Shown: one piece after another, positions 2,752 through 32,095 of the stretch
Numbering within the stretch: position 1 is the stretch's first letter
Layout of the letters: every line of letters begins with the position of its first letter
Assembly (NCBI GenBank): GCA_030433115.1
Contig: JAUILH010000033.1
Coordinates: forward strand, 1 to 32,095
Reading direction: 5' to 3'
Source of the DNA: Bacteroidia bacterium
GTDB taxonomy: Bacteria > Bacteroidota > Bacteroidia > Flavobacteriales_D > JAUILH01
DNA: 32,095 bases
Notes under the pieces: model-generated
What the model was told of the DNA's origin: nothing
The model's database searches: none
Seen by the model: only the letters and a program-made list of their open reading frames with translations
Program-made: the position numbers and the translations under genes

Positions 2752-3006
2752 CTAATGCTTGAACCTTACGAACAATCTTCCATGATTTTTTGAGTCTTTA
2801 TCTATGCGATGGTATTTGTTTTTGATGTCTTTTCGCATTAAAAATCTAAGCACTTTTTTCTTAAGCTGTCCACTTCCTTTACCGGGAATGATCTCAACCA
2901 GGGCAATTTTTCTATCGATGGCTTCCTCAATGATCTCTTCTAAGGCACGATCGATTTCCCGTTCTTTATTGTAGATGTCGTGAAGGTCTAGTTTTAGTTT
3001 AGCCAT
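2752..3006 (-). CDS. Smr-domain protein (84 aa)
   Basis: ATG 3006 starts MAKLKLDLHDIY; the longer frame would only duplicate the end of the upstream gene. This is a stand-alone Smr domain: the LDLH motif at residues 6-9, IIPGKGSGQLKKKV at about 39-52 (the conserved GxGxG-type nucleic-acid loop) and a C-terminal GRLFVRF strand. Smr domains are found in MutS2 and in small proteins, and several have nicking or RNA endonuclease activity. Whether this short version is active cannot be told from sequence. The start overlaps the stop of the upstream ACP phosphodiesterase-like gene by 8 bases, indicating translational coupling in one operon. Confidence 0.85.
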   Translation of the reverse strand: MAKLKLDLHDIYNKEREIDRALEEIIEEAIDRKIALVEIIPGKGSGQLKKKVLRFLMRKDIKNKYHRIDKDSKNHGRLFVRFKH

Positions 3007-3598
3007 TGGATTCGAATATTTTGAGTTTTTGGACGCAAGCCGATTGAATCTCGTCAAAAAACACTAAAAATTCCTTTTCAAATTCTTCAAAATGAAGCAC
3101 AAGGTCCTTGGCAGCAGTCGCCATATTATTGCTAAACTTGGTTCTTCTCGAAAGTCCCTGAAATGTTCGCTCAATGCCTTCTAGATGTGGGTAGTTTCCC
3201 AACCAATTATGGCGAATCATGTGATCGCTGAGGTACTGAGTCTCTTCAGGTAAAATAGCTCTGTTCTCTCTTAATAAACTGTATATACTTTTAGCAAACT
3301 CGTCCAAGTCACTGCCCACGATAATCGACCAGTTTTTAGCCAGCAAATGATCGTAGTAAATATCCAGCACCACCCCGGAATAATGGCGGTAATTCTGCCA
3401 AATGCGCTTCTTGCCCTGTCTGGTCAGTTCATGGTTATCCATAAAATCATCAATGAACCTGTGGAGCAAAATTCCTGTAGAAATCTTCTTGGGGTACTTA
3501 TCCAAAAAACCATAGCCTTTTATGGCATCTCCCATCATGTTTCCAATCAATACTTCCGGATCTTGTCCGCTGAGATAAGCATGTGCGAGATAATTCAT
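2999..3598 (-). CDS. Acyl carrier protein phosphodiesterase-like protein (AcpH/DUF479 family)
   Basis: Start ATG 3598 gives MNYLAHAYLS, the typical family start; the six extra residues in the longer frame are not needed. About 199 aa, close to E. coli AcpH (193). Family landmarks are His6, the GNMMGD segment with Asp24, LLHRFIDDFMDNH at about 45-56 and YYDHLLAKNW near 81-90. Together these form an HD-like metal site. AcpH-family enzymes remove the 4'-phosphopantetheine arm from holo-ACP. The family assignment is good, but the substrate in Bacteroidota is unproven. It is cytosolic and shares an operon with the Smr gene. A perfect TATATTTG box lies 19 bases before the start on the minus strand. 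Confidence 0.8.
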   Translation of the reverse strand: MNYLAHAYLSGQDPEVLIGNMMGDAIKGYGFLDKYPKKISTGILLHRFIDDFMDNHELTRQGKKRIWQNYRHYSGVVLDIYYDHLLAKNWSIIVGSDLDEFAKSIYSLLRENRAILPEETQYLSDHMIRHNWLGNYPHLEGIERTFQGLSRRTKFSNNMATAAKDLVLHFEEFEKEFLVFFDEIQSACVQKLKIFESNG

Positions 3599-3617
3599 AT
3601 TGGCTAATTTACCCAAT

Positions 3618-3625
3618 CAAATATA
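3618..3625 (-). promoter_or_regulatory. -7 promoter box TATATTTG for the AcpH-like/Smr operon
   Basis: A perfect match to TAnnTTTG on the minus strand, 19 bases before ATG 3598. A second, imperfect box (TAAATTAG, 3604-3611) lies even closer. It faces away from the LytS gene that starts at 3687. Confidence 0.5.
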
Positions 3626-3672
3626 AATGACGCCAATTATGTAAAAGCAATTTCCGGTTTCAAATTTGAGCG

Positions 3673-3680
3673 TATCTTAG
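3673..3680 (+). promoter_or_regulatory. Possible -7 box (TATCTTAG) for the LytS/LytTR operon
   Basis: TATCTTAG is one base from TAnnTTTG and ends six bases before ATG 3687, implying a very short leader. No -33 element is evident, so this is weak by itself. Confidence 0.3.
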
Positions 3681-3686
3681 TATTAG

Positions 3687-4742
3687 ATGTCTTGGTCAGT
3701 TTTCCTATACAACAAGAAAGTACAATATTGGGTCGCTCAAATTTTGGGGTGGGCGGCATACTATATTCTTGTATATTTCAGTGCAGAGAGGCTTCAGGAG
3801 TCTGAAAACTGTGAAGTATACTTGGTTATAGTTTATCTCACTTCAATTGTGCTAACGCACGTTTTCAGAATGGTGATTGTTGGCTTCAATTGGTTTAAGT
3901 TCAAACCACTCAATGTGCTTTGGCGTGTTGTGATTGCGTGTATTCTAATTTCGTCTATTGACATTCTGGTAGATTTAGGGTACGAACGGCTGTTGCTGGA
4001 AGAAGAACTCCATACCAAAAGAGAAACGCGTCCCATACTTCTTGGAATCATCATTAAAAGTTTGTTCTACTTCATGTGGTCGGCCATCTACTTTGCTTTT
4101 CATTACATTGGTAAGTCCAGAGCAGAAGAAATAAAGAACATTCAATTGGAAGCGAGTAAAACGGAAATTGAATTAAAAAATTTGAAGGCACAATTGAATC
4201 CGCATTTCATGTTTAACTCCATGAACAGCATCAGGGCATTGGTAGATGAGAATCCCGTTCAGGCAAAGTATGCCATTACCCAGCTTTCTTCCATACTCAG
4301 AAATACTTTGTTGATGGGGAAAAGTAAAATAGTTCCCATTAAAGATGAATTGGCTGTTGTTAAGGATTATTTGTCTCTTGAAGGAATTAGATATGAAGAA
4401 CGCTTAAAGGTGAATTACAAGATTGATGAAAGGCTCATGAATTGTGAAATTCCTCCTATGATGATGCAAACTTTAGTAGAAAATGCAATTAAACATGGGA
4501 TTTCTAAGTTACCAAATGGCGGAAACCTTGATATCACGATTCAGGAACAGGTGGACAGAGTTGAAGTACTCATCGTCAATTCTGGAACCATTCAAAGCGA
4601 GAACCCGGAAACGGGTATTGGCTTGAGAAATACGATCAAACGATTGGACTTATTATATGGAGCGGAGAGCGAGTTTAGCATAAGAAGTGGCGAGCACAAA
4701 GTGACTACCAGATTTATTTATCCAAAGAAAAAAATGTTATGA
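3687..4742 (+). CDS. LytS/YehU-type sensor histidine kinase
   Basis: 351 aa. There are four predicted membrane segments (about 14-31, 43-66, 78-97 and 116-140) with no large extracellular sensor domain, then a short coiled coil. The His_kinase domain has the phospho-acceptor motif QLNPHFMFNSMNSIRAL (His173). The HATPase domain has the N-box LVENAIKHG (Asn266) and a glycine box TGIGLRN (about 309-315). It would autophosphorylate and pass phosphate to the LytTR regulator encoded next, whose ATG overlaps this stop in an ATGA arrangement. The signal is unknown; in this family it may be membrane state or a small molecule. Length and architecture are normal for Bacteroidota LytS-like kinases. Confidence 0.93.
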   Translation: MSWSVFLYNKKVQYWVAQILGWAAYYILVYFSAERLQESENCEVYLVIVYLTSIVLTHVFRMVIVGFNWFKFKPLNVLWRVVIACILISSIDILVDLGYERLLLEEELHTKRETRPILLGIIIKSLFYFMWSAIYFAFHYIGKSRAEEIKNIQLEASKTEIELKNLKAQLNPHFMFNSMNSIRALVDENPVQAKYAITQLSSILRNTLLMGKSKIVPIKDELAVVKDYLSLEGIRYEERLKVNYKIDERLMNCEIPPMMMQTLVENAIKHGISKLPNGGNLDITIQEQVDRVEVLIVNSGTIQSENPETGIGLRNTIKRLDLLYGAESEFSIRSGEHKVTTRFIYPKKKML

Positions 4743-5449
4743 AAGCGATAGTTGTTGACGATGAAAGATTGGCGAGAAAAGAATTGATGTCTTTGCTGGA
4801 TAATTACAAGCAGCTTGAAGTTGTGGAAGAATGCGCCAATGTGGATGAGGCCAAAACAGCCATTGAAAAGCATGGACCGGATTTGATCTTTCTGGACATT
4901 CAAATGCCGGGTAAGAATGGATTTGATTTGATTTCTGAATTGGACAGTGTGCCAAGGGTGGTGTTTGTGACCGCCTACGACGAATTTGCAATCAGAGCCT
5001 TTGAGGTGAATGCCCTTGATTATTTATTGAAACCGGTTCACCCGGAGCGTCTAGATGAAGCCATGAAGAAAGTGTTCGACAATATCATAGATTACAAGGA
5101 ATCCGAACAACGTTTGACAGAGGATGATCAGATTTTCCTGAAGGATGGAGAAAAATGCTGGTTCGTGGCCTTGAAAGATATTCGTTTGTTCGAATCGGAA
5201 GGGAATTATGTGCGCGTTTTGTTTCATAATCACAAGCCTTTGATTCTAAGGTCTTTGAATAATTTGGAGAAAAGACTCGATAGCAAAGTCTTTTTCAGGG
5301 CAAACAGAAAATTCATTATCAATCTAAAATGGGTAACAGGTATTGAACCCTGGTTTAACGGTGGTTTGCAGGTTGAATTAAGGGATGGGGAGAAAGTAGA
5401 AATTTCCAGACGACAAGCCGCAAAATTTAAAGATTTAATGAGCTTATAA
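4739..5449 (+). CDS. LytTR-family response regulator
   Basis: 236 aa. The receiver domain (1-115) has acidic residues D7/D8, phospho-acceptor Asp53 in FLDIQMPG, Thr78 in FVTAYDE and Lys98 in LLKPV. All expected residues are present. Residues about 130-233 form a LytTR DNA-binding domain (LFESEGNYVRVLFHN, ending in EVEISRRQAAKFKDL). It acts as a cytosolic transcription factor paired with the kinase upstream, with a 4-base ATGA overlap. LytTR regulators usually bind pairs of short direct repeats; I saw no convincing pair in this window, so targets probably lie elsewhere. Confidence 0.95.
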   Translation: MKAIVVDDERLARKELMSLLDNYKQLEVVEECANVDEAKTAIEKHGPDLIFLDIQMPGKNGFDLISELDSVPRVVFVTAYDEFAIRAFEVNALDYLLKPVHPERLDEAMKKVFDNIIDYKESEQRLTEDDQIFLKDGEKCWFVALKDIRLFESEGNYVRVLFHNHKPLILRSLNNLEKRLDSKVFFRANRKFIINLKWVTGIEPWFNGGLQVELRDGEKVEISRRQAAKFKDLMSL

Positions 5450-5559
5450 TTTCGTCGGGTTAATACTTCAGTTTATCGTACATCTGTAATTTTTTGTAGA
5501 AATTAATTTGCGATTTTAATTTGATTTATCCAATTTTATAGAGCAAACGCAAACTTAGC

Positions 5560-5955
5560 ATGGAGAAAATTTACGTTGAGGCTACGGCCAAAACACCAAT
5601 GGTTTCATTAGACCCTGTAAGCGGTGTTTTTGAGTTTAAAGGGAAGTCAATTCCCTCAGATGCAGAAAATTTTTATGCCCCAATTATCGACTGGGTGGAA
5701 TCGTACGCCGGTAAGCCAGCTAGTAAAACTGTCATTAACGTGGACCTTGATTTCTTCAATATTTCTTCATCCAAACGATTGTTGTTTATCATGTACAAGC
5801 TGAATGAAATGACAGAAAATGGTCATGACGTTGAGCTTAAATGGCATTATTACAATGATGATGACGACATGTATGAGGTAGGACAAGATTATGCCTTTAT
5901 GGTTAAAATTCCTTTCGAATTTGTCATCAAAGAACGTGCTTTATTGGCTGTCTGA
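5560..5955 (+). CDS. SiaC-family regulatory phosphoprotein (DUF1987)
   Basis: 131 aa, full length for DUF1987. Features that identify it are ATAKTPMVSLDPVSGVFEFKG, IPSDAENFYAPIIDWVESY, the FNISSSKRLLFI segment and a C-terminal GQDYAFMVKIPFEF. In Pseudomonas, SiaC is phosphorylated on a Ser/Thr at the equivalent of the SSSK loop (Ser69-71 here) by SiaB and dephosphorylated by the PP2C protein SiaA; unphosphorylated SiaC activates the diguanylate cyclase SiaD. No SiaB kinase or GGDEF gene is adjacent. A SpoIIE/PP2C protein lies at 15154-17160. The 3' end overlaps the convergent DUF1853 gene by 15 bases. The regulatory target here is unknown. Confidence 0.85.
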   Translation: MEKIYVEATAKTPMVSLDPVSGVFEFKGKSIPSDAENFYAPIIDWVESYAGKPASKTVINVDLDFFNISSSKRLLFIMYKLNEMTENGHDVELKWHYYNDDDDMYEVGQDYAFMVKIPFEFVIKERALLAV

Positions 5956-6804
5956 TGTCGGCCAGGTATCAGGAACCACGAAAATCCTTTGTGTCTCATA
6001 GTATAAACCATGTCGCTTTTCAAGACGCGCAATCAACACGCTTTTGTTGTGTTCAACAATATAGTTTTTGCAATGTTTGATAACCTCAGGCCAACGCACC
6101 GCATCCAATTCTCTTGGGGCAATCTCAACAGGTGAAAACCAATATGTCTTTGGCAGCAAGCACCAATAATCTTGGCGCCCATCGACTTTCTCAAGTTCAC
6201 TTTTTCTCAACCAAACGACCTTGTGTCTCATGTCAAAGTTGAATTCCTCAAACAAGTGACACTTTAAATACAAAGACGACTCTATGTCATCAGGAATAAT
6301 CGTTTTCACAGAATGGTGTGTTACCAATGGAAGTTGCCTGGTTTCCACAGTACTTAATTTGTTTTTAAGGGTATCTCTGGCATTAGGACCAATCCAGGCA
6401 CCTTGATAATGCAGGTAAAATTTGTAGCTCAATTCCCAATGATGAACTTTACCAGATTTAAGGTCCTTAAAAATGAAGTCGATTTCACTCAAAGTAATCC
6501 CCTTATCCACCACTTGAAAATTATGTAACAACAAGTCTAGTCGTGGATGACTCTCAATAAAAAATCGCATCAGGTCCTCTGCGTATTTTCCAATAATATG
6601 GGTCGGACAGTCAGCAATATGCTGCGCAAGCGGTGTTGGCGATTCTGCAAGTTTCTCTAATACTGGTTGAAATTCATCTGCCAATTCTTTAACATAAGTT
6701 TCGGACACCAGACAATTGAAATAGGTAGGTTGTAGGAACAGATCACCGTTGATGAGATACGCCAGATCTCTTACCAATTTGTTATGATATGTTAACTCAG
6801 ACAT
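5941..6804 (-). CDS. DUF1853 family protein, PD-(D/E)XK-nuclease-like
   Basis: 287 aa from ATG 6804. The N-terminus (NKLVRDLAYLINGDLFL) and the core (SEIDFIFKD, then HHWELSYKFYLHYQG) match DUF1853. The order Glu76 (KYAED), Asp109 (EIDF), Glu124 and Lys128 (WELSYK) resembles the acidic/lysine active site of PD-(D/E)XK nucleases, a superfamily that to my recollection includes DUF1853. No substrate is known, and nuclease activity here is only an inference. There is no signal peptide, so it is cytosolic. Its stop lies inside the end of the convergent SiaC-like gene (15-base overlap), so the two transcripts would be antisense at their 3' ends. A TAAGTCTG sequence 11 bases before the start is a poor promoter candidate. 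Confidence 0.8.
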   Translation of the reverse strand: MSELTYHNKLVRDLAYLINGDLFLQPTYFNCLVSETYVKELADEFQPVLEKLAESPTPLAQHIADCPTHIIGKYAEDLMRFFIESHPRLDLLLHNFQVVDKGITLSEIDFIFKDLKSGKVHHWELSYKFYLHYQGAWIGPNARDTLKNKLSTVETRQLPLVTHHSVKTIIPDDIESSLYLKCHLFEEFNFDMRHKVVWLRKSELEKVDGRQDYWCLLPKTYWFSPVEIAPRELDAVRWPEVIKHCKNYIVEHNKSVLIARLEKRHGLYYETQRIFVVPDTWPTSDSQ

Positions 6805-6834
6805 ATAAATCCATGCAGACTTAAATAAAACTAA

Positions 6835-6842
6835 TAACTTTG
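6835..6842 (+). promoter_or_regulatory. -7 promoter box TAACTTTG for the OmpH-like operon
   Basis: A perfect TAnnTTTG match ending nine bases before ATG 6852. It shares the extension TTTGCAGCTT with the box at 18190. The predicted leader is only a few bases. Confidence 0.55.
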
Positions 6843-6851
6843 CAGCTTCAA

Positions 6852-7103
6852 ATGAGACTTGTAGAAGAAATACCGCATCATACTTTTAAAATCTCTGTGT
6901 TTAACTACAACGCAAAGTACATTATAAAGATTGAGTTGGCGCAATTTGAACAATCGTATAAAATTGCGGAGACAAATGTGCAAGGTATGGATCAGCTTAA
7001 ACAGTTACTTACAGAGTCTTTTTTAGAGTCATGCATGAAACGTTTCTTATCCATGCGGGCTGATTTTAATCACAGTTTTGAAAATTTAAGTTATGAAGTT
7101 TAA
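6852..7103 (+). CDS. Small hypothetical protein (83 aa) leading the OmpH-like operon
   Basis: Start ATG 6852 (MRLVEEIPHHTFKISVFNYN) is preferred over the in-frame TTG at 6840, which lies inside the promoter box. The product is a short alpha/beta protein with two beta strands (HTFKISVFNYNAKYIIKIEL) followed by helices, without a signal peptide or cysteine-rich region. It carries YKIAETNV and an acidic/aromatic tail. I do not recognise the family. Its stop overlaps the start of the OmpH-like lipoprotein gene by 11 bases, so the two are almost certainly cotranscribed and translationally coupled. That argues for a role linked to the downstream envelope genes, but the function is unknown. Confidence 0.75.
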   Translation: MRLVEEIPHHTFKISVFNYNAKYIIKIELAQFEQSYKIAETNVQGMDQLKQLLTESFLESCMKRFLSMRADFNHSFENLSYEV

Positions 7104-27811: not shown

Positions 27812-30800
27812 ATGCGGACATTATTTTGCTTACTTTTTGCCGCGCTTATCTCCATTGGCGCCTTCGGCCAAAACACGATACATGTTACAAATGGAAATGA
27901 CACGGGAGCGGGGTCTTTAAGGGAAGCCTTAAGCCTTGCAACAACTGGCGCAACCATCAAAATCGATTTCTCAGGACAACTAGATTTAACCAGTCCATTG
28001 ATTATCAATACTGCTTCTCTTAACATTGAGGGACCTGCACCAATACATTTTAATATCAATGCAGCAGGGGTGTCAGGATCGTTATATGCCATAGAGATTA
28101 ATGCAACGAATGTCATGATTAATGGCATTAAGTTCAGTGGAAAAACAGGGACAGAAAGTTTCTTATTCGTAAATCCAGGCGCTACAGCCACGATTGAAAA
28201 CTGTCATTTCGAGAACAACAACATTTCCGGGGGAGGAGATGGTGGAGCCATCCTCAACGCAGGAAATCTGACTGTGAATCGTTGTAGTTTTTCCACCAAT
28301 TCAGCTGACAATGGTGGTGCTATCTCAAACGTGGACGTTTTAAATGTTTATTTCTGTAGTTTCCATTACTGTGATGCGCTTAACGGAAACGGAGGGGCGA
28401 TTCTGTCCTTAACTGATATAGAAATAGACAGATGTACCTTCTTTCATACGAGAGCTTTAGCTGGAGCTGGGGGGAGTGTTTACATTTCTGGTGTTACCAG
28501 TTTTGCGAAAATGCATGCGTGTTTATTCGACTCAACCAGCAATGCCAGTACTGCAGGTACAGAAGCCGTTGGGGCCAGTGTAGGTGCAGCAGCACTTATG
28601 AACGGAGGAGATATTTCAGATTGTATGATGCTGGATTCTCCTGCTAACTTGAACCTGGTTATTTTTGGCGCGTATAATAATAGCGTTGGAAGCTATCCAA
28701 CGAATATATTCGGCTTGAGAACTGCAGGGGTGGTTACAGATGGCTACGGACTGCAATGGATTCCGGTAACAAATCCTAATGGTACTGCCATAGATGAGGT
28801 TTCCTATCAAACTTCTTTGGTTGGACCAATTGATATCCGCAGGGGACCGGGGCAGGCGCCAATTAACAGCTTTGCTCAGGATATTGGAGCTGTGGAGAAT
28901 TCAAAATTTACTGTCACTACAACAACACCTACGGGACAAGGAAGTATTCAAAATGCCATTTCAGCCATTAATGCAGCTGGTCAAGGTCCCTATTTAATTG
29001 ATTTTGACTATGCAGGCTGGACTCCAATCAACCTGACATCATCCCTTGATGTTTTTATTGGTTCAGATGAATTGTATATTGATGGCTACACGATACCGGG
29101 AAGCAGGGTTCCCGGACCAACTGATGGTTCTAATCCAGTTGTGCATGGAATTACCAATGTAGTACTTGAAGGTCCCTCTGGCACGCAAAATGCCATTAAT
29201 TTATATAATGTTGGTCCTTCCAAAATCAGTGGATTGGCGATAGGCGAATGTGCTGTTGGGATAAACAATTCGAATAGTCAGTCTTTGTCCAATGCGGATA
29301 TTTTTGGATGCCACTTTGGACTGGATCATAACGGAAACGACAATGGTAAATATTGCGACACAAGTATTGTTGTGCGAACGGATTACACGTTGATAGGTGG
29401 AGACCATGAATTTCAAAGAAATGTTTTTGGGGGTATCAATGGACCGGCAAAACCTCATATTTATGTTGAAGGATTAGGCTTTACTGGAACCGCCATTGAC
29501 GGCAACTTTTTTGGATTGGATGGAACAGGAACTGTAGATGTTAATTCTGGTAATGGCAATATAGGTATTGGACTGGTCAATGCCGGCTTTGGATACATAG
29601 GGAGAAATTTGTTCGGTGGTTTGCGAAAAGGAATCATTGTTACGGGAGCTTCTGGTTTCAATATCGAAGAAAATCTTTTTGGTCTTGATGCATGGGGGAC
29701 TGGTTCAATGCCAATTGAAGTTGGTATGGAGATGTCTTCTGTAACAAGTACAAATAACATTGGAGGATCTCAGCTTCAAAACTACTTTTGTTCTGCAAAT
29801 GGAGGTGTTGGCTCCGGAATATATATTGCCAATACAAATCAAAATCAAGAAATAGTTTCTAATTATTTTGGTCTCAATACATCTTTTACTCCCATGGGGA
29901 ATCAATACGGGGTAAAAGTTTTGTCCTCAACCAATGTTCATATCGGACAAACAGGAAATGAAGTCAATTTCATTGCAGCAAGTTCTGTCAATGGAATAGA
30001 ATTGAATAACTCATCCAACTGCATCATTCAACATACTGTTTTGGGCTTAGATACTAATGGATTGAGTACAGCCGGTGTTGGGAATCAAATAGGAATTGAA
30101 TTGAATTCTTCCAATATTAATTCTATTGGAGTACCAGGCGCACCTATTTGGGTGTCAAACAGTGTGTCTCATGGAATTGAACTCAATGCAAGTTCAGGGT
30201 GCCAAATACAAGATGCCAACGTTGGGGTGGACATTAACAATTCACCGGCTGGAAACGGAGGTTCTGGAATAGTTTTATTAAACAGCTCCGGCACATTGGT
30301 CGGAGGCACTGGCGCTAATGAAAGTGTGACAACCGCCTTTTCTACAACACACGGTTTTGACATTTCTGGGGGATCTTCTAACACCAGAATTATTGGAGAC
30401 AGTGTATACAGTAATGGCTCACAAGGCATTTATTTCGATGATGTAACAACCATAGATAACCTCATAGAAAACACCGTTGTCTATGATAATGGAGGCTCTG
30501 CAGAAGGCATTACTTTGAGTGGTGTAGCCAACAATAATGTACCTAGACCAAGCATTCTTGGAGTGAGCAGGTGTGATGGACAAACTCGAGTAAAAGTTCA
30601 ATTCAATAATACTGTTGGAAATGATGCACAAATAGAATTTTTCAGAATACCGAACGGGAGTGAAGATCCCAGTGGTTTTGGGGAAGGAAATGTGCTGCTC
30701 GCATTAATACCTTCGGCAAGCATTCCGACATCACATGTCCAAACATATACCCTTCCTGATGTACCTGCCGGAGATTACATATCATGTATCGTATCTTATG

Positions 30801-32095
30801 GTCTAACCAATAAAAGTACTTCTGAGTTTTCCAATCATTCGCAAGTGGTAGAAGGTCCTGTAAGCAGTTTGGCTTCCAGTACAAATGTGTCATGCTTTGG
30901 TGGAAACGATGGACAAATTTCAGTGACCATTTCCAATGGGGCTGCCCCTCTGGTTTATGATTGGCAGGATGGCGGTCTGACTTTCGCAACTACTCAGAAT
31001 GTAACAGGTTTATCTGATGGAAGCTATGATTTAATTGTGACAGATGATGTGGGCTGTGCAGATACCGCAACCTACTCAGTTACCCAACCCGCGAGTCCGG
31101 TCGTTGTGACATTATCTGGGAGTACCAATGTGATGTGTAATGGCAATAGCGATGGAACCATTGATATTAATGTAACCGGAGGAACCCCTGGAACAACCCC
31201 AATGTACTATTTTGACTGGGACAATGATGGAACAGGAGACACGGATGATCCGGAAGACCTTACTGGTCTCAGTGTCGGATCGTATAGTGTGGTTGCCATA
31301 GATGATAATGGATGTACAGATACACTTTCAGGTTTGATCATTACCGAACCAATGGCCATTTCAGAATCTTCATCGGTAACGTCAAATTATAATGGAGAAG
31401 ACATCAGTTGTTCCGGATTAAGTGATGGAGAAATTACAACGAACATTACGGGAGGCGTTGGTCCGTATACCATCACCTATAATGGAGCAAATCCTCAGAA
31501 TACTTTAACGGGAAATCATGTTCAATCTGGTTTTGCTGCAGGGTCATATATGATTGATGTCACAGACAACAATGGATGTACATGGTCCGGAACAAACGTC
31601 AATGTCACCCAACCTACACAACTGTTCTCAAACCCATCTAAAACGGATGTGTCTTGTTTTGGAGGTTCTGACGGAACAGTGACCGCAGCCGCTACGGGTG
31701 GTGTGCCAGGGTATTCTTATGCGTGGGATAGCGGTTTGGGTGCCGGACAAACACATAATTCAGTGACAGCAGGAAGTTATACAGTAACCGTTACCGATCA
31801 AAATGGATGTATGCATTCTGATTTGGTGACCGTTTCGCAACCGGCAACTGCAGTGTCCGTTTCTGTTGATGCGATTAATGATGCCTCTTGTAATGGCAGT
31901 TCTGACGGCAGCATCCTGATGCTGGTAAGCGGTGGATCTTTTCCTTACAATTATGATTGGGACAATGATGGAACGGGCGATAATGATGATACCAAAGATT
32001 TATACAGTTTACCAGCAGGAACCTATTCATTAGTAGTGACGGATAATAACGGATGCACAGTGGCATCAGGTCCGTACACAATTAACCAACCTGGT
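27812..32095 (+). CDS. Giant beta-helix/SprB-repeat surface protein, partial (continues past right edge)
   Basis: An open frame of 1428 codons from ATG 27812 to the window end, with no stop. Signal peptide MRTLFCLLFAALISIGAFGQ, then HVTNGNDTGAGSLREAL, the usual start of Bacteroidota right-handed beta-helix adhesins. Residues about 35-905 form a parallel beta-helix with many GGAI, FGLD and NxI steps. An Ig/fibronectin-like domain follows at about 910-1015, then five SprB repeats of 76-88 residues (nt 30880-31090, 31091-31351, 31352-31615, 31616-31843, 31844 to the edge). Each has a start like SCxGxxDG, a middle GGxxPY and an end VxDxNGC...Q/EP. SprB is a type IX-exported gliding adhesin, so this is probably secreted the same way; the C-terminal signal lies outside. 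Its function, adhesion or gliding, is inferred. Confidence 0.9.
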   Translation, partial: MRTLFCLLFAALISIGAFGQNTIHVTNGNDTGAGSLREALSLATTGATIKIDFSGQLDLTSPLIINTASLNIEGPAPIHFNINAAGVSGSLYAIEINATNVMINGIKFSGKTGTESFLFVNPGATATIENCHFENNNISGGGDGGAILNAGNLTVNRCSFSTNSADNGGAISNVDVLNVYFCSFHYCDALNGNGGAILSLTDIEIDRCTFFHTRALAGAGGSVYISGVTSFAKMHACLFDSTSNASTAGTEAVGASVGAAALMNGGDISDCMMLDSPANLNLVIFGAYNNSVGSYPTNIFGLRTAGVVTDGYGLQWIPVTNPNGTAIDEVSYQTSLVGPIDIRRGPGQAPINSFAQDIGAVENSKFTVTTTTPTGQGSIQNAISAINAAGQGPYLIDFDYAGWTPINLTSSLDVFIGSDELYIDGYTIPGSRVPGPTDGSNPVVHGITNVVLEGPSGTQNAINLYNVGPSKISGLAIGECAVGINNSNSQSLSNADIFGCHFGLDHNGNDNGKYCDTSIVVRTDYTLIGGDHEFQRNVFGGINGPAKPHIYVEGLGFTGTAIDGNFFGLDGTGTVDVNSGNGNIGIGLVNAGFGYIGRNLFGGLRKGIIVTGASGFNIEENLFGLDAWGTGSMPIEVGMEMSSVTSTNNIGGSQLQNYFCSANGGVGSGIYIANTNQNQEIVSNYFGLNTSFTPMGNQYGVKVLSSTNVHIGQTGNEVNFIAASSVNGIELNNSSNCIIQHTVLGLDTNGLSTAGVGNQIGIELNSSNINSIGVPGAPIWVSNSVSHGIELNASSGCQIQDANVGVDINNSPAGNGGSGIVLLNSSGTLVGGTGANESVTTAFSTTHGFDISGGSSNTRIIGDSVYSNGSQGIYFDDVTTIDNLIENTVVYDNGGSAEGITLSGVANNNVPRPSILGVSRCDGQTRVKVQFNNTVGNDAQIEFFRIPNGSEDPSGFGEGNVLLALIPSASIPTSHVQTYTLPDVPAGDYISCIVSYGLTNKSTSEFSNHSQVVEGPVSSLASSTNVSCFGGNDGQISVTISNGAAPLVYDWQDGGLTFATTQNVTGLSDGSYDLIVTDDVGCADTATYSVTQPASPVVVTLSGSTNVMCNGNSDGTIDINVTGGTPGTTPMYYFDWDNDGTGDTDDPEDLTGLSVGSYSVVAIDDNGCTDTLSGLIITEPMAISESSSVTSNYNGEDISCSGLSDGEITTNITGGVGPYTITYNGANPQNTLTGNHVQSGFAAGSYMIDVTDNNGCTWSGTNVNVTQPTQLFSNPSKTDVSCFGGSDGTVTAAATGGVPGYSYAWDSGLGAGQTHNSVTAGSYTVTVTDQNGCMHSDLVTVSQPATAVSVSVDAINDASCNGSSDGSILMLVSGGSFPYNYDWDNDGTGDNDDTKDLYSLPAGTYSLVVTDNNGCTVASGPYTINQPG
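30880..32095 (+). repeat. SprB-type tandem repeats within the giant gene (five units visible)
   Basis: Unit ends are marked by VTQP, ITEP, VTQP and VSQP; the fifth reaches INQPG at the edge. Units 2 and 5 contain a nearly identical DWDNDGTGD insertion (31214-31249 and 31955-31990), and the units diverge elsewhere. The array probably continues beyond the window. Confidence 0.85.

Follow-up and report, generated by a model that had tools for sequence, protein, structure and literature searches.

A conserved and probably calcium-binding loop in a minority of the SprB repeats of a Bacteroidia bacterium and its relatives

A small fraction of the SprB repeats (PF13573) encoded by a Bacteroidia bacterium and its relatives carry a twelve-residue acidic sequence in one of their loops, and this loop variant is real and conserved and, to judge from its sequence, probably binds calcium. 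Two of these units lie in the window, by which we mean the whole analysed stretch of 32,095 nucleotides. "SprB" is used here as the name of the repeat family, and identity with the SprB gliding adhesin is not implied. That adhesin has a very long repeat array and a type B sorting domain and is moved by the gliding machinery; among the relatives' genes considered below, a type B domain is present in one long array (L181).

The last gene of the window (27812–32095, plus strand) is complete at its 5' end and open at the contig end. Its product starts with a signal-peptide-like segment, followed by a long N-terminal region, which appears β-helix-like by eye and has no match in the Pfam scan, and then by five SprB stretches that score 145.4 bits in total in that scan. 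The calcium-type loop is present in unit 2 (31127–31399), where it is DWDNDGTGDTDD (31214–31249), and in unit 5 (31880–32092), which is truncated by the contig end and where it is DWDNDGTGDNDD (31955–31990); units 1 (30884–31126), 3 (31400–31645) and 4 (31646–31879) are without it (all features are on the plus strand). Units 5 and 2 score 44.0 and 32.6 bits, respectively, with PF13573, both in excess of the 28-bit Pfam cut-off. An earlier note on this DNA had described near-identical acidic sequences within otherwise diverged repeats, and both statements hold, as the two 12-mers stand at the exact ends of the span it had claimed and outside them 26 of the 59 aligned residues (44%) are common to units 2 and 5. 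With the loop included these two units are 52% identical, and the remaining nine pairs of units are 35–45% identical. A three-unit block duplication in the window is not supported, since units 2 and 5 are no closer to one another outside the loop than are other pairs. The same note had called the loop an insertion; the loop is certainly present, but the word is loose, because the loop swaps with others of similar or shorter length (from the W, which is Y in unit 3, to the G of AG-x-Y, the loops of units 1 through 5 have 18, 19, 20, 15 and 19 residues). The eight upstream ORFs that were scanned with Pfam belong to ordinary families (ABC transporter, tRNA pseudouridine synthase, Rho, Mur ligase, HI0933-like, SpoIIE, OmpA/PD40 and TPR), so the neighbourhood gives no pointer to a gliding operon.

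The calcium-type loop is a discrete sequence class. We scored 905 SprB units, 242 from the window's own genome and the rest from relatives' arrays, at eight loop positions (D1, D3, D5, G6, G8, D9, D11 and D12), and the distribution is bimodal: 778 units score 0–4, none scores 5, and 127 score 6–8. The loop stands where other SprB units have loops of 10–28 residues; it is 19 residues long in 117 of the 127 units of the class and 18 in 10, and lengths of 18 or 19 also occur in 175 of the 778 units outside it. Among 118 unique loops, in which conservation at the search-pattern positions is partly selected because the relatives' loci were found by those patterns, D1, D5, G8 and D12 are present in all 118, D9 in 117 and G6 in 116; position 3 is D in 110, S in 6 and N in 2, and position 11 is D in 116, N in 2 and never Cys. 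Position 4 is N in 91 of these loops, position 10 is N in 54 or F in 44, and positions 7 and 13 are variable. The pattern by which the relatives' arrays were chosen fixes D1, W2, D3, D5, G6, G8 and D9, and a second search for related loci used the patterns DWDNDG and GDxDD. D11 and D12 lie outside the first of these, and a loop with neither of them could also be admitted to the class. A second set, which overlaps the first and comprises units less than 80% identical (111 of 116), has D12 in 109 of 111 units and D11 in 108 of 111. PF13573 matches 94 of 95 scanned loop units at E up to 1. The acid and glycine positions of the loop are kept while silent sites and flanks change.

In an Ig-like β-sandwich that is predicted with confidence, the loop connects one strand to another. 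A model of unit 5 built from 95 sequences (the two window units and 93 of the 116 relatives' units) has a mean pLDDT of 96.4 and a pTM of 0.82, with six strands and no helix; in this model the loop links strands 35–38 and 52–55, and block 41–50 has a mean pLDDT of 95. A model of units 2 and 3 together (41 sequences) is middling (mean pLDDT 89.7, pTM 0.73), with values of 86 for block 41–50, the unit 2 loop, and 75 for block 131–140, the unit 3 loop, and at this pTM the predicted arrangement decides nothing about a stiff joint between units. Foldseek found no match to the unit 5 model at E up to 0.001. VIA-align placed the model among Ig-like, fibronectin III and PKD domains with a best Z of 7.4 (the PKD domain 4jrw matches with Z 6.3), a likeness that may be merely that of a common arrangement. 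The loop profile compared with solved structures gave one match, at chance level, and so no useful structure. For the profile of the whole loop unit the best PDB match is the Aureispira grappling hook protein GhpA (9flp and 9fly, E 1.8e-16), and 9fly aligns with the unit 5 model (Z 6.8, 76 residues, 3.1 Å, 22% identity); all 23 of the listed GhpA-match stretches begin at profile position 51 or beyond, past the loop, so the loop itself is unmatched.

Judged by its residues, the loop is likely to bind Ca2+, and we think it a likely structural calcium site of Dx[DN]xDG type, set in one strand-to-strand loop of the Ig-like SprB repeat. The earlier note had likened the spacing of the acidic residues to that of calcium-binding loops, and it does agree, position by position, with both the Dx[DN]xDG motif and thrombospondin type 3 (TSP3) loops. 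In the motif as described by Rigden et al. 2011 (PMC3123361), position 1 is Asp, position 3 Asp, Asn, Ser or Thr, position 5 Asp or Asn and position 6 Gly, and Ca2+ is held by the side chains of positions 1, 3 and 5 and by the carbonyl of the next residue, with later ligands that vary. The SprB loop has the same acids at 1, 3 and 5, the same Gly 6 and the same tolerated residues at position 3; both window copies carry the motif residues at 1, 3, 5 and 6 (the 118-loop counts there are partly selected), and the later acids follow at D9 (117), D11 (116) and D12 (all 118). The contexts described in PMC3123361 include strand-loop-strand settings and an Ig-domain graft, in which rat CD2 gained a new Ca2+ site when a loop of this type was inserted between two of its strands; a word search of its main text finds no mention of SprB or immunoglobulin. 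By this comparison, the side chains of positions 1, 3, 5 and 12 and the backbone of position 7 (with position 9 through a water) would hold one Ca2+ outside the cell, and the ion would lock the loop and so stabilise the unit. In the subtype that precedes the type A sorting tail (below), the same site would firm up the tail-adjacent unit. Stiffening of the whole stalk by calcium, as the earlier note had proposed, is possible.

The resemblance to other calcium loops is close without being complete. TSP3 loops (COMP, 3fby, and thrombospondin-2, 1yo8) share D1, D3, D5, G6, G8, D9 and D12 with the SprB loop, and a COMP example, DSDGDGIGDACD, has its acids and glycines in the same places, but the SprB loop occurs once per Ig-like unit, has Asp and not Cys at position 11, and is not part of a tandem TSP3 array. 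TSP3 repeat identity was ruled out by the lack of Cys at position 11 in the 118 loops and by the single loop per unit; no TSP3 Pfam match was found at E up to 10 with three units and two peptides, a search in which HMMER filters can drop weak matches. An EF-hand-like character, also suggested earlier, is correct for the 12-residue loop with its 1-3-5-(7)-9-12 spacing and fails for the helix-loop-helix, since the unit 5 model is without helices. The SprB loop differs from EF-hand loops further in having Gly and not Ile, Leu or Val at position 8, and Asp and not Glu at position 12. EF-hand identity was therefore ruled out by G8 and by the absence of flanking helices in the model, where the loop connects two strands of a predicted Ig-like domain. 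A comparable setting, Ca2+ in a small extracellular β-sandwich, is described for the PKD-like domain of ColG in PMC3711286, although the ligands named there (Asn795, Lys796, Asp823, Asp825 and Asp864) come from the N-terminus and other loops rather than from one DxDxDG loop. Calcium in SprB repeats is not mentioned in the searched passages of papers on SprB and gliding, and in the open-licence literature we found no paper that names DWDNDG and none that joins Crocinitomix, or thrombospondin type 3, with type IX secretion. The one paper there that brings together SprB repeats and calcium concerns a fucoidanase.

Most SprB units have other loops, and the calcium-type loop is a minority variant. 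The own genome (4.38 Mb, 264 contigs) has 150 scored matches to the Pfam SprB model; a custom SprB profile detects 263 units in the parts of it that were retrieved, and five of these have the loop or a near form of it, two in the window, two on contig C232 (one of them the near form DWSVDGTGDFND) and one on contig C82. A degenerate DNA pattern of the loop gives four matches in this genome and its reversed control none. Compared pairwise, the four full own-genome copies differ by 2–6 silent and 0–1 replacement codons of 12, and the replacements are all at position 10. On C232 an ORF (2962–6861; L053) contains, in its N-terminal part, four DxDGDGDxD stretches resembling FG-GAP calcium blades, and it has both the near form and a full loop, the latter in the last SprB unit before a type A tail. 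On own contig C146 (L036), one frame, 4013 residues long, has dozens of matches to SprB and lacks the calcium-type loop.

The window's family comprises one genome. Within the same order, a looser pattern matches 48 of 299 genomes (its control gives 0 among the matches listed), and a stricter pattern matches no genome besides the own one in a phylum sample of 395. Loci with the loop are found in Crocinitomix catalasitica (L169, L175), C. algicola (L186, L195), Fluviicola MAGs (L140, L173) and Saprospiraceae MAGs (for example L151, L164, L188 and L212), as well as in others. By regular expression, 68 of the 78 loci of the related-locus search have the loop; nine of the remaining ten have DWDNDG or DWDNNG loops that differ in tail or spacing, so that conservation of the later acids is not strict throughout, and L211 is without any. 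Five loci, mostly from Saprospiraceae MAGs (L146, L157, L168, L182 and L204), have DWDNDG loops with differing tails and acid spacing, for example DWDNDGPDAIDDDFEDL and DWDNDGLEDPDNDTQDL, in which the DxDxDG core is kept and the later ligands differ.

The loop units do not recur every third unit, as had been surmised from units 2 and 5. Of the 38 intervals between loop units in 15 representative arrays, which were picked by hand and have two or more loop units apiece, 9 are divisible by three (8.4 expected, P 0.47) and 5 are exactly three (3.8 expected, P 0.33). It is neighbours that are over-represented, with 18 of 38 intervals equal to one where 11.7 are expected (P 0.002). Some arrays show intervals of 3, 3 and 18 or of 3 and 6, and a local three-unit block is therefore possible in those. 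In the 1560-aa ORF of L119 (G405) the loop units recur every 304–306 residues or so in a higher-order repeat whose last unit is without the loop.

A more interesting lead than either every-third spacing or stalk stiffening is the link between the loop and the final SprB unit ahead of the sorting tail. The loop lies 120–139 residues before the stop codon in 88 of 216 unique instances. SprB units stand directly before the tail in 53 of 78 clusters of ORFs that have such units and a sorting-tail-like end, and in 40 of these 53 the last unit bears the loop; when only clusters that have two or more units and one or more loops are taken, the last unit bears it in 33 of 37 where 13.1 are expected (P < 5e-5), counts to which loci mostly picked for the loop and many Crocinitomix paralogues contribute and in which the tail was called by regular expression. 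TIGR04183, the type A sorting domain of type IX secretion (T9SS), was present in all five loop proteins checked, including those on own contigs C82 and C232. The own genome was not selected for the loop, and there the loop is in 2 of 9 last units and 3 of 254 others (P 0.0099); this count includes C82, which was added because NCBIfam shows its tail, and the regular expression alone, which may have missed further tails, gives 1 of 8 (Fisher P 0.14). A proportion of 2 in 9 makes the loop in the last unit a tendency. A fixed last-unit rule was rejected on two counts: 7 of the 9 own-genome last units are without the loop, and 4 of the 37 relatives' clusters (L119, L148, L109 and L112) have loop units of which none is last.

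The loop units before the tail differ from the others. The first SprB cysteine (a Cys in residues 9–20) is present in 1 of 41 pre-tail loop units and in 67 of 70 other loop units, and F occupies position 10 in 32 of the 41 versus 24 of the 70 (5 of 116 units, whose frames end less than 120 residues after the loop, are left out of these counts). Window units 2 and 5 are of the cysteine-keeping kind. Neighbouring paralogue families with products of about 460–810 residues (L150, L159, L172 and L186, for example) end in a last SprB unit that has the loop and is without the first cysteine, followed by a type A tail whose YPNP lies at a near-constant distance of about 57 residues from the loop. The window gene ends with its contig, before any C-terminal sorting domain could appear. 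Contig C82 (L064, minus strand, first 147 aa) opens partway through a loop unit and closes with a type A tail, the stop lying 131 residues from the loop. The 3' part that the window gene lacks could be on this contig, but the two contigs do not overlap, and others (C208, C260 and C107, for example) also end inside SprB arrays. That the loop unit without the first cysteine might be a dedicated junction module for T9SS type A cargo, in which Ca2+ outside the cell would set the last domain and so steer export, release or anchoring, is an idea we regard as rather improbable.

Three other explanations of the loop deserve weighing against a structural calcium site. It might be a metal-free acidic hairpin kept for solubility, for salt tolerance or for packing on the neighbouring unit; SprB loops do vary widely and many are polar, and the model predicts the loop confidently in the absence of metal. 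General acidity, however, explains neither G6 and G8 nor the exact spacing, and the acids stand at fixed places while positions 4, 7, 10 and 13 vary, so we consider such a hairpin unlikely. Recent copying with no function, by unit duplication or gene conversion, could account for the likeness of units 2 and 5, and the excess of adjacent loop units reported above speaks for it. On the other side, these two units are only 44% identical outside the loop, the loop occurs both in units that have the first cysteine and in units that lack it, and the own-genome copies differ silently at 2–6 of 12 codons, a pattern that speaks against recent copying; this explanation has hardly any claim to be correct.

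In adhesins calcium can bridge a ligand, and the loop could be an adhesive or ligand-binding patch, for a glycan or a partner protein and with or without calcium, rather than a structural brace. Surface adhesins with SprB-like repeats are indeed described in PMC11205867. Against such a patch, the positions of ligand type are near-invariant across many proteins, unlike those of a specificity patch, and a site that is frequently beside the sorting tail is not expected of a contact patch; we judge this explanation very unlikely.

The structural calcium site is thus the reading we prefer, at the strength given above. Since both the loop and its repeat are defined, and the loop often lies beside the sorting tail, the role of calcium there can be tested directly. 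If calcium is bound, the Ig-like SprB repeat would be a further setting to add to the Dx[DN]xDG contexts described in PMC3123361.
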